Positions 41,196 to 43,989 of a stretch of 64,000 bases of DNA are shown here, piece by piece. This DNA is from an uncultured Pseudomonadota bacterium. Lineage in GTDB: Bacteria; Pseudomonadota; Gammaproteobacteria; Steroidobacterales; Steroidobacteraceae. Each line of letters begins with the position of its first letter. The first letter of the stretch is position 1. Where the stretch lies: assembly GCA_903879335.1 (NCBI GenBank), contig CAIRLC010000017.1, positions 186,001 to 250,000 of the forward strand, read 5' to 3'. Both the position numbers and the translations under genes were made by a program. The notes below the pieces were generated by a model that had not been told where the DNA came from, ran no database searches, and worked only from the letters and a program-made list of their open reading frames with translations.

Positions 41196-41396
41196 CGCTG
41201 CGGCGCCGCCTGCAGTGTTCGACATGGGTCAAGACCTCCCGGCCCTAATTGCGTTACCCCGGGGCAAGTGCTTGCAGGGTCACTGAGCATGTCCGCCTCG
41301 TTGCGGAAAGCCTTAAGTCTTGCAGTACGCCCCACTTGTTGCTCCGGTCCGGGAGCAACGATTCGTGACGGCACAGGTGGACGGCGCCGCCTTTCT
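41196..41396 (+). ncRNA. ssrS: 6S RNA
   Basis: The stretch between zapA and the EVE gene holds the 6S hallmarks. Terminal arms CGGCGCCG (41201-41208) and CGGCGCCG (41382-41389), with adjoining CCTG/CAGG, close a long rod. A conserved core GAGCATG...AAGCCTTAA (about 41286-41315) matches E. coli 6S. 6S RNA binds sigma-70 RNA polymerase and tunes transcription in stationary phase. Ends are approximate. The usual downstream ygfA is absent and the EVE gene follows instead. Confidence 0.88.
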
Positions 41397-41450
41397 CTCT
41401 ACTGGTAAACCCACCGACCGGATTGTCCGGCGTGGGCGCGGGAGTACGTG

Positions 41451-41918
41451 ATGAAGTACTGGCTGATGAAGAGCGAACCATCGGTGTTCGGCATCGAGGA
41501 TCTACGCAAGGCGCCCAAGAAGCGCTCCGCCTGGGATGGTGTGCGTAACTACCAAGTCAGAAATATGATGCGCGACGAAATGCGCATCGGAGACCTTGCC
41601 TTCTTCTATCACTCGAGCTGCGATGAGCCTGGAATTTACGGGATTATTCGCATCGTGAAAGAAGGCTACCCAGACCATACTGCATTCGATCCGACGAATG
41701 ATCACTTCGATGCAAAGAGCAAACCGGACAATCCGACGTGGTACATGGTGGATGTCGAATTCGTAGAACAGTTCAAACGACCAGTCACACTTGATCGCCT
41801 ACGCGCGAATGCTGAGACACTGAATGAGTTACTCATTCTGAAGCGAGGTAATCGTTTGTCCGTCACGCCAATCAAAAACGGTGAATGGCAACGCATCGTC
41901 GAGCTCTCACTTCAATGA
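41451..41918 (+). CDS. EVE-domain protein
   Basis: I choose ATG 41451 (155 residues), with GGAG 6 bases upstream; a GTG one codon earlier is the alternative. The EVE (PUA-like) fold is clear: MKYWLMKSEPSVFGIEDL, WDGVRNYQVRNMMR, GDLAFFYHSS and PTWYMVDVEFV. Family members bind modified bases in DNA or RNA, and some take part in restriction. No restriction gene is near, so a general RNA or DNA-modification reader is more likely. The gene stands downstream of 6S RNA. Confidence 0.9.
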   Translation: MKYWLMKSEPSVFGIEDLRKAPKKRSAWDGVRNYQVRNMMRDEMRIGDLAFFYHSSCDEPGIYGIIRIVKEGYPDHTAFDPTNDHFDAKSKPDNPTWYMVDVEFVEQFKRPVTLDRLRANAETLNELLILKRGNRLSVTPIKNGEWQRIVELSLQ

Positions 41919-41948
41919 CCAAGCGTGGTGTTTAAAACGCCTATCACA

Positions 41949-41983
41949 ACAAAAAGTTGGTTGCTTGTAATTTGACTTTTTGT
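41949..41983. repeat. Inverted repeat at the promoter of the lysine-rich peptide gene
   Basis: ACAAAAAGT (41949-41957) and ACTTTTTGT (41975-41983) form a perfect 9-bp dyad with a 17-base spacer. It covers the -35 region of the downstream gene. It may be an operator, or a bidirectional terminator for the EVE gene. Confidence 0.5.
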
Positions 41984-41992
41984 GTATATACT
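41965..41992 (+). promoter_or_regulatory. Sigma-70-like promoter of the lysine-rich peptide gene
   Basis: TTGTAA (41965-41970) and TATACT (41987-41992) are separated by 16 bases and lie 34 bases before the ATG at 42027. The -35 box is inside the inverted repeat. A start site near 41999 is inferred. Confidence 0.5.
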
Positions 41993-42026
41993 CCAACCCC
42001 GGACTAACTCATATTGGAGAACTACT

Positions 42027-42092
42027 ATGGCGACCAAGAAAAAAGCCGCGAAGAAGAAGGCAACGAAGAAGAAGGCTGCTAAGAAGAAGTAA
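42027..42092 (+). CDS. 21-residue lysine-rich peptide, histone-tail-like
   Basis: The gene codes 21 residues, a double repeat of A/G-T/A-KKK units (MATKKKAAKKK then ATKKKAAKKK), with 12 lysines. GGAG lies 8 bases before the ATG and a promoter-like pair and a strong terminator frame it, so it is a real transcription unit. The peptide has no room for a fold and is strongly basic, like histone H1 tails and similar C-termini, so DNA, RNA or ribosome binding is a guess. The near-perfect repeat of AAG-rich codons suggests recent duplication. Confidence 0.7.
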   Translation: MATKKKAAKKKATKKKAAKKK

Positions 42093-42150
42093 GCCTTTAG
42101 AAGTTGCCGGGGATGAAGGCTTCAACCCAACTCCCCTAATGCTTCGCCGA

Positions 42151-42184
42151 CTGTGCCCGCTTATGCGGGCACAGTCTTTTTTGT
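42151..42184 (+). terminator. Rho-independent terminator
   Basis: A perfect 10-bp stem CTGTGCCCGC / GCGGGCACAG with loop TTAT is followed by TCTTTTTTGT. It ends the transcript of the lysine-rich peptide gene before rpiA. It is one of only two hairpins in the window with a clear T-run. Confidence 0.9.
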
Positions 42185-42250: not shown

Positions 42251-42910
42251 ATGAAGAGTGATGATCTCAAGCGCCGCGTCGCTGAAGCGGCAGTCGCCTA
42301 CGTACCGGCTGGTTGTGTACTCGGAGTAGGTACCGGTTCGACGGTGAACCATTTCATCGCAGCGCTCGCCGAGCAGAAGATCGAACTCGCTGGCGCAGTC
42401 TCAAGCTCAGAAGCGAGCACTCGTCTGCTCAAAGCAGCGGGCTATGAAGTACTCGACCTCAACTCCACGGGAGATCTTGAGGTGTATGTGGATGGTGCGG
42501 ATGAGTCGAATCGACACCTTCATCTGATCAAAGGCGGCGGCGCCGCACTCACTCGCGAGAAGATTGTTGCAGCGGCATCGCGACGATTCATCTGCATCGT
42601 CGATCAGTCGAAAGTGGTCGACGTACTCGGTCGCTTCCCCTTGCCTGTCGAAGTGATACCAATGGCGCGATCGTACGTCGCTCGGCAACTGGTCAAACTC
42701 GGCGGCCAACCAGTCTATCGCGACGGCGTCGTGACCGACAACGGCAACGTAATTCTCGATGTGCACAACTTGGCGATCGTGGATCCGAAGGGCCTAGAGG
42801 ATGCCATCAACGGCATCGTCGGCGTCGTGGCCAATGGCCTGTTTGCGCGACGGCCTGCCGATGTCTTACTCGTTGGCACGGCCGGCGGTGTCGAGACGCT
42901 CACCGCCTAA
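42251..42910 (+). CDS. rpiA: Ribose-5-phosphate isomerase A
   Basis: This 219-residue RpiA has [12 protein letters not shown] (phosphate loop), the DGADE motif with the catalytic aspartate and a lysine in [13 protein letters not shown]. It interconverts ribulose-5-phosphate and ribose-5-phosphate in the pentose phosphate pathway. Size matches E. coli (219). It converges with the acyltransferase gene. The ribosome site is weak. Confidence 0.96.
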
Positions 42911-43877: not shown

Positions 43878-43909
43878 AGAAAAGACAAGGCCCGCTTGCG
43901 CGGGCCTTG
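43878..43909 (-). terminator. Rho-independent terminator of tRNA-Gln
   Basis: On the minus strand a 10-bp stem (CAAGGCCCGC / GCGGGCCTTG, loop GCAA) is followed by TCTTTTCT, 6 bases past the tRNA CCA end. It overlaps the upstream in-frame ATG of the acyltransferase gene, which argues for the GTG start. Confidence 0.85.
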
Positions 43910-43915
43910 ACGTTT

Positions 43916-43989
43916 TGGCTGGGGAACTAGGATTCGAACCTAGATTGACGGAGTCAGAGTCCGCTGTCCTACCGTTAGACGATTCCCCA
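43916..43989 (-). tRNA. tRNA-Gln (CTG)
   Basis: A cloverleaf on the minus strand begins TGGGGAA and pairs with TTCCCCA, with D arm GTCTAACGGTAGGAC, anticodon loop CTCTGAC (anticodon CTG, for glutamine codon CAG), and T arm CTAGGTTCGAATCCTAG. The encoded 3' GCCA is present. Start TGGGG is typical of tRNA-Gln. Confidence 0.95.

Follow-up and report, generated by a model that had tools for sequence, protein, structure and literature searches.

In the chlamydial protein Hc2 (Pfam PF07382) and in Bordetella BpH1, lysine and alanine recur in a repeat style with two basic residues per pentamer, and the proteins are 165-237 aa and 182-206 aa long, respectively (PMC2848022). AlgP of Pseudomonas joins a 124-aa N-terminal domain to a 154-aa KPAA region; peptides made of its repeats bind to DNA, and the protein sets the spacing of polyphosphate granules (PMC9239181). 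We describe a gene of 21 codons from the window, by which we mean the whole 64,000-nt stretch of DNA that was analysed. Judged from its sequence and its relatives, this lysine-rich ORF is a genuine conserved gene. Like Hc2 and BpH1, its peptide has lysine/alanine pentamers in tandem (KKKAA-KKKAT-KKKAA-KKK), evenly spaced charge and a length that depends on repeat number. Unlike them, it has KKK in each unit, comprises about three or four units and stands at a different place, and it falls short of their typical length, with 21 aa in the window and 14-30 aa at 108 of 114 loci of the window's family. It also has no match to PF07382 at the curated cut-off. With AlgP (AlgR3) and PhaF of Pseudomonas the peptide shares lysine-rich repeats like the tail of histone H1, but it has neither a further domain nor KPAA repeats, and it contains no proline. 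The features of the locus and its neighbours are as follows.

Upstream of the 6S RNA gene, + strand: zapA
41204-41387, + strand: 6S RNA (Rfam RF00013, 75 bits), between zapA and the EVE gene
41448-41918, + strand: EVE-domain gene
41941..41948, + strand: upstream box CTATCACA, 16 nt before the -35 box; CTANCACA in close relatives
41949..41983, no strand: dyad with arms ACAAAAAGT (41949-41957) and ACTTTTTGT (41975-41983)
41965..41992, + strand: predicted promoter, within the stretch CTTGCTTGTAATTT...TGTATATACT that is conserved in the alignment of relatives
41965-41970, + strand: -35 box TTGTAA, with a 16-nt spacer to the -10 box
41987-41992, + strand: -10 box TATACT
42000..42019, + strand: conserved 5' leader CGGACTAAC...GGAG
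42016-42019, + strand: ribosome site GGAG, 7 nt before the ATG
42027-42092, + strand: 21-aa lysine-rich gene, MATKKKAAKKKATKKKAAKKK, stop included
42149..42182, + strand: predicted strong intrinsic terminator, a 12-pair hairpin at 42149-42176 with a 4-nt loop, followed by the T run TTTTTTGT
42251-42910, + strand: rpiA
43919-43989, - strand: tRNA gene

The ORF begins with ATG, runs for 21 codons, 12 of which encode lysine, and ends with TAA. Its translation reads MAT-KKKAA-KKKAT-KKKAA-KKK, with a charge of about +12 and no acidic or aromatic residues, and the peptide is presumably unfolded when free. The two strands of the window hold 424 ATG-to-stop frames of 14-30 codons. This ORF alone among them reaches a lysine content of at least 45%, and none of 16672 frames from 30 first-order Markov shuffles does so. 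The Pfam and NCBIfam models gave no match to the 21-aa peptide, HMM searches being weak for 21 residues. A phage search with the peptide likewise gave no match, a result that the low-complexity filter makes uninformative, and in the open-access literature we found no such tiny lysine-rich gene.

How widely is the gene kept? In the window's family, we located EVE in relatives, many of whose genomes are draft assemblies, and read the sequence behind it. EVE was matched in 160 of the 200 genomes drawn, and 114 of those 160 loci were read (35 loci and 79 of the other 125); second copies (L032, L033, L046, L074, L084, and L106) were excluded from the family counts, and L135-L142 were unused. The gene is present at 109 of the 114 loci, and at 108 of them it encodes 14-30 aa, with clusters at 16 aa (22 loci), 21 aa (35 loci), and 22 aa (21 loci). 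At three loci the gene is incomplete in the assembly, cut by the contig end in L153 and L213 and interrupted by Ns in L196, and two loci (L122 and L147) carry none. The 108 short peptides use only A, G, H, K, M, P, R, S, T, and V, are 50-67% lysine, and never contain D, E, F, W, or Y, a makeup that fits an unfolded polycation. All 108 end in KKK, preceded by two of A/S/T/V in 106, by KA in one, and by PA in one. The one other gene, of 61 aa, is that of L145, where the otherwise short form appears to have re-expanded through AK-type repeats. Moreover, the gene is independent of its EVE neighbour, since a DNA query found it kept in 10/10 EVE-less genomes tested (L266-L275), all of genus g19 and comprising the g19 members among 20 listed of 40 such genomes. 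rpiA follows the gene in all ten, and zapA lies about 1 kb upstream in eight; in the other two the contig ends just upstream.

The initial annotation had claimed a lysine-rich gene of 21 codons that has a promoter and a terminator of its own, and had made the gene's standing depend on whether close relatives conserve the ATG and the lysine repeats. Both were found there, and the claim was borne out, the signals being located in the window and kept in relatives. Taken by itself, the -35/-10 pair is no more frequent in its region than chance predicts (1 found, 1.1 expected). Across the 109 family genes, TATACT lies upstream of 104, the leader motif CGGA[CT][TA]AA occurs in 101, and GGAG stands 6-10 nt before the ATG in every one. 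A hairpin of the form GCCCGC-loop-GCGGGC follows within 170 nt of the stop codon in 108/109, and the remaining gene (L172) is cut by the contig end. The same type of hairpin was found elsewhere in the family loci 18 times, one of these, with the sequence of the gene's own hairpin, belonging to the interrupted L196. By eye, the outer stem is altered on both sides between some genomes, which fits the expectation for a kept structure. In many relatives, GTTTC-type tails rather than a long T run follow the hairpin, the window's own tail being TTTTTTGT. Taken from the positions of these boxes, the transcript would be monocistronic and roughly 180 nt long.

Upstream of the promoter, the CTANCACA box is a possible regulator site: in 17 aligned loci (15 of the genus and 2 of other genera) its TA and CACA are invariant and its first C is present in at least 85%, although the box is not present throughout the wider family. 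The dyad that the initial annotation placed over the -35 box fared differently. Both arms exist as written, but the dyad is not conserved: it is perfect in only one of 15 genus members, the window genome itself, and in each of the other 14 just 3-7 of the 9 positions agree. Within the genus the right arm is kept, but only as part of the promoter spacer. We therefore reject the dyad as an operator, regard it as a chance feature outside the system, and drop this part of the annotation.

The pattern of codon changes indicates that selection acts on the peptide within the window's genus (g1). In all 15 genomes read of the genus, 16 codons are shared, and their variable columns number 0, 0, and 9 at the first, second, and third codon positions (Fisher p 6.8e-6, a guide rather than an exact value since the rows share ancestry). 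The last six codons gave 1, 0, and 2, with two members being five codons shorter and having different ends. For genus g7 (16 genomes), variation at both of the tested ends is likewise confined to third positions. Genera g13, g19, and g4 show some first- and second-position changes, and thus the peptide is not frozen outside g1 and g7.

Outside the window's family, the same place holds much longer genes. We read 52 EVE loci from other families of the order, namely all 18 such loci first found and 34 picked later. A complete lysine-repeat gene of 83-209 aa is present in 26 of these, the gene is cut by a contig end or Ns in 9, and 17 have no gene; the short form was found behind EVE in none of the 52. 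rpiA lies close behind EVE in five of the gene-less loci, and in the other 12 EVE stands elsewhere, as no rpiA occurs within the stretch read. Among 12 long genes examined, TATACT precedes 10 and GGAG all 12. Their promoter resembles that of the short genes, with the consensus ctgGaA.TTTt....TATACTcg...CGgACaccC where the 109 family genes have TTGta.tTT....TATACTC...Gga.tAaC. Since the strict leader motif of the family is missing in 9 of the 12, the likeness of the long and short leaders rests on the looser consensus. In a wider contig set of 80 EVE loci, a long lysine-rich gene lies behind EVE in 14, including further Gammaproteobacteria (L046 duplicates L020, L054 duplicates L237, and L082 is cut short by the end of its contig). 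A short gene was found in five, all second copies of loci of the window's family, and no gene was found within the stretch scanned in 61, some contigs ending early.

The long forms of sister families share the lysine/alanine repeat style described for Hc2 and BpH1. The long relative in L129 matches the Pfam HC2 model (PF07382) at E 8.7e-8 and 32.9 bits, under the cut-off of 40 bits, and low-complexity matches of this kind can be convergent. Its NCBIfam matches (21.7 of 80 and 19.6 of 135 bits) are far under the cut-offs, and the HC2 model did not match the window peptide or one 22-aa short form; two other long forms gave no match to any model. The earlier suggestion that the tiny gene is histone-like thus gains support from its place, which in sister families is held by long lysine-repeat proteins, one of them matching HC2 below the cut-off. 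The annotation's alternative, a ribosome-associated peptide, gained no such support from this analysis.

The EVE tree offers a view of how the short form arose. It has 98 rows (59 of the 114 family loci, 18 loci of the order, and 21 hand-picked loci of the wider set), and it was built by a quick method from the EVE protein only, is unrooted, and has many weak forks. With rows lacking a complete gene left out of the length count, the long/short state needs two changes on this tree, one of which is necessarily the 61-aa L145 inside the family; the family label itself needs two changes, not one. The simplest history would therefore be that the gene was shortened once, at or near the family's base, and later partly re-expanded once, given these two changes and the long forms in further Gammaproteobacteria. 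Tentatively, and with slightly less than even confidence, we suggest that an H1-like repeat protein was cut down, probably once, to a stand-alone gene of 14-30 residues, in which three or four charge pentamers are the only domain that remains, and which was then kept for the age of the bacterial family.

What might so short a polycation do? We consider it fairly probable that the tiny gene is a family-specific miniature of a histone-H1/Hc2-like repeat protein, in which about four pentamers bind nucleic acid or polyphosphate by charge. A monocistronic gene, complete with promoter, leader, ribosome site, and terminator, would yield a 21-residue polycation, and this peptide would bind polyanions by charge, with nucleoid DNA as the likeliest target and RNA or polyphosphate next. 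We infer such binding to DNA, RNA, or polyphosphate from the Hc2-like long relative and from AlgP-type tails, which bind DNA and organise polyphosphate granules (PMC9239181). The peptide may then serve as a counter-ion encoded by a gene, compacting or shielding nucleic acid in the manner of H1 tails, Hc2, and AlgP-type repeats, and about four pentamers would do the work for which its relatives have many more.

Could the functional product instead be the RNA, either a small regulatory RNA or a dual-function one in which the ORF is secondary? The short transcript, its own promoter, the conserved leader, a hairpin whose loop is GNRA in 93 of the 108 family genes that have it, and the GTTTC-type tails in place of a long T run in many relatives all speak for such an RNA. 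We nevertheless think it unlikely, because the distance from stop codon to hairpin differs by about 60 nt among the genes and the intervening sequence is not kept from genus to genus, because the changes seen in the ORF within the genus are synonymous, C/T exchanges in alanine and threonine codons among them, and because the sister families carry long lysine-repeat proteins at the same place. Moreover, no Rfam family was matched at the gathering level, and the permissive level gave three sub-threshold matches. The long relatives also make it improbable that the peptide binds the ribosome or rRNA in the manner of bTHX, a tiny, very basic ribosomal protein. The two are alike in being very short, very basic, and encoded by a stand-alone gene, and an SD-led gene of this kind kept across one family would suit a ribosomal role. 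However, relatives of the present gene at the same place are long repeat proteins of 83-209 aa, and such widely varying lengths are unlike those of ribosomal proteins; the peptide matches no Pfam or NCBIfam model, such models being weak for a query of 21 residues.

The order of lysine codons, terminator, and rpiA might also suggest that the lysine-rich product is a leader peptide through which rpiA is attenuated. This is very improbable: rpiA is not a lysine gene, other families encode 83-209 aa where the leader peptide would be, and in L041, L042, L043, and L045 the lysine-repeat gene after EVE ends about 1.7-1.9 kb before rpiA. As for a functionless, decaying remnant of a long H1-like gene, which would explain why the gene is so much shorter than its relatives, the codon pattern already contradicts it, since the 16 shared codons specify the same residues in 15 genus members while the DNA varies at third positions. 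The promoter, SD, and terminator are kept as well, and the gene persists where EVE was not found, so we give decay next to no probability.

If the tiny gene is indeed a miniature H1-like protein, few and perhaps none of the known gene-encoded nucleoid polycations would be smaller than its products, and H1-like repeats would need about 10-14 lysines as their minimal working unit. Genes of such length usually fall under the length limits of gene finders, yet in this one the promoter, ribosome site, coding pattern, and terminator are all conserved. With lengths from 209 down to 14 residues occurring naturally at one place, it becomes testable how many repeats an H1-like tail needs, and the natural short polycations are a ready set for work on binding and condensation.

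The tiny gene is not the sole H1-like gene of its genome, as a second ORF of 95 aa, rich in lysine, alanine, and proline, lies on contig C2 of the window genome (G000, C2:168071-168355, L226). The idea that the family has no long H1-like gene elsewhere was therefore dropped. As a query, this ORF gave matches in 31 of 60 relatives at E <= 1, of which only that in G007 is clear (E 2.6e-14); the next best has E 9.6e-5, and many rows contain internal stops. With a 150-aa lysine-rich query, matches at E <= 0.01 were obtained in 19 of 60 relatives, those within the family being only G004, G008, G017, and G032, all weak. This query did not match the window's genome, and since it thus missed the 95-aa ORF, searches for lysine-rich proteins are insensitive. 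By eye, the 95-aa ORF adjoins what reads as a threonine dehydratase ORF. Within the window, beyond rpiA, a hairpin at 43886-43909 with T-rich tails on both strands adjoins the tRNA gene and is a possible two-way terminator.
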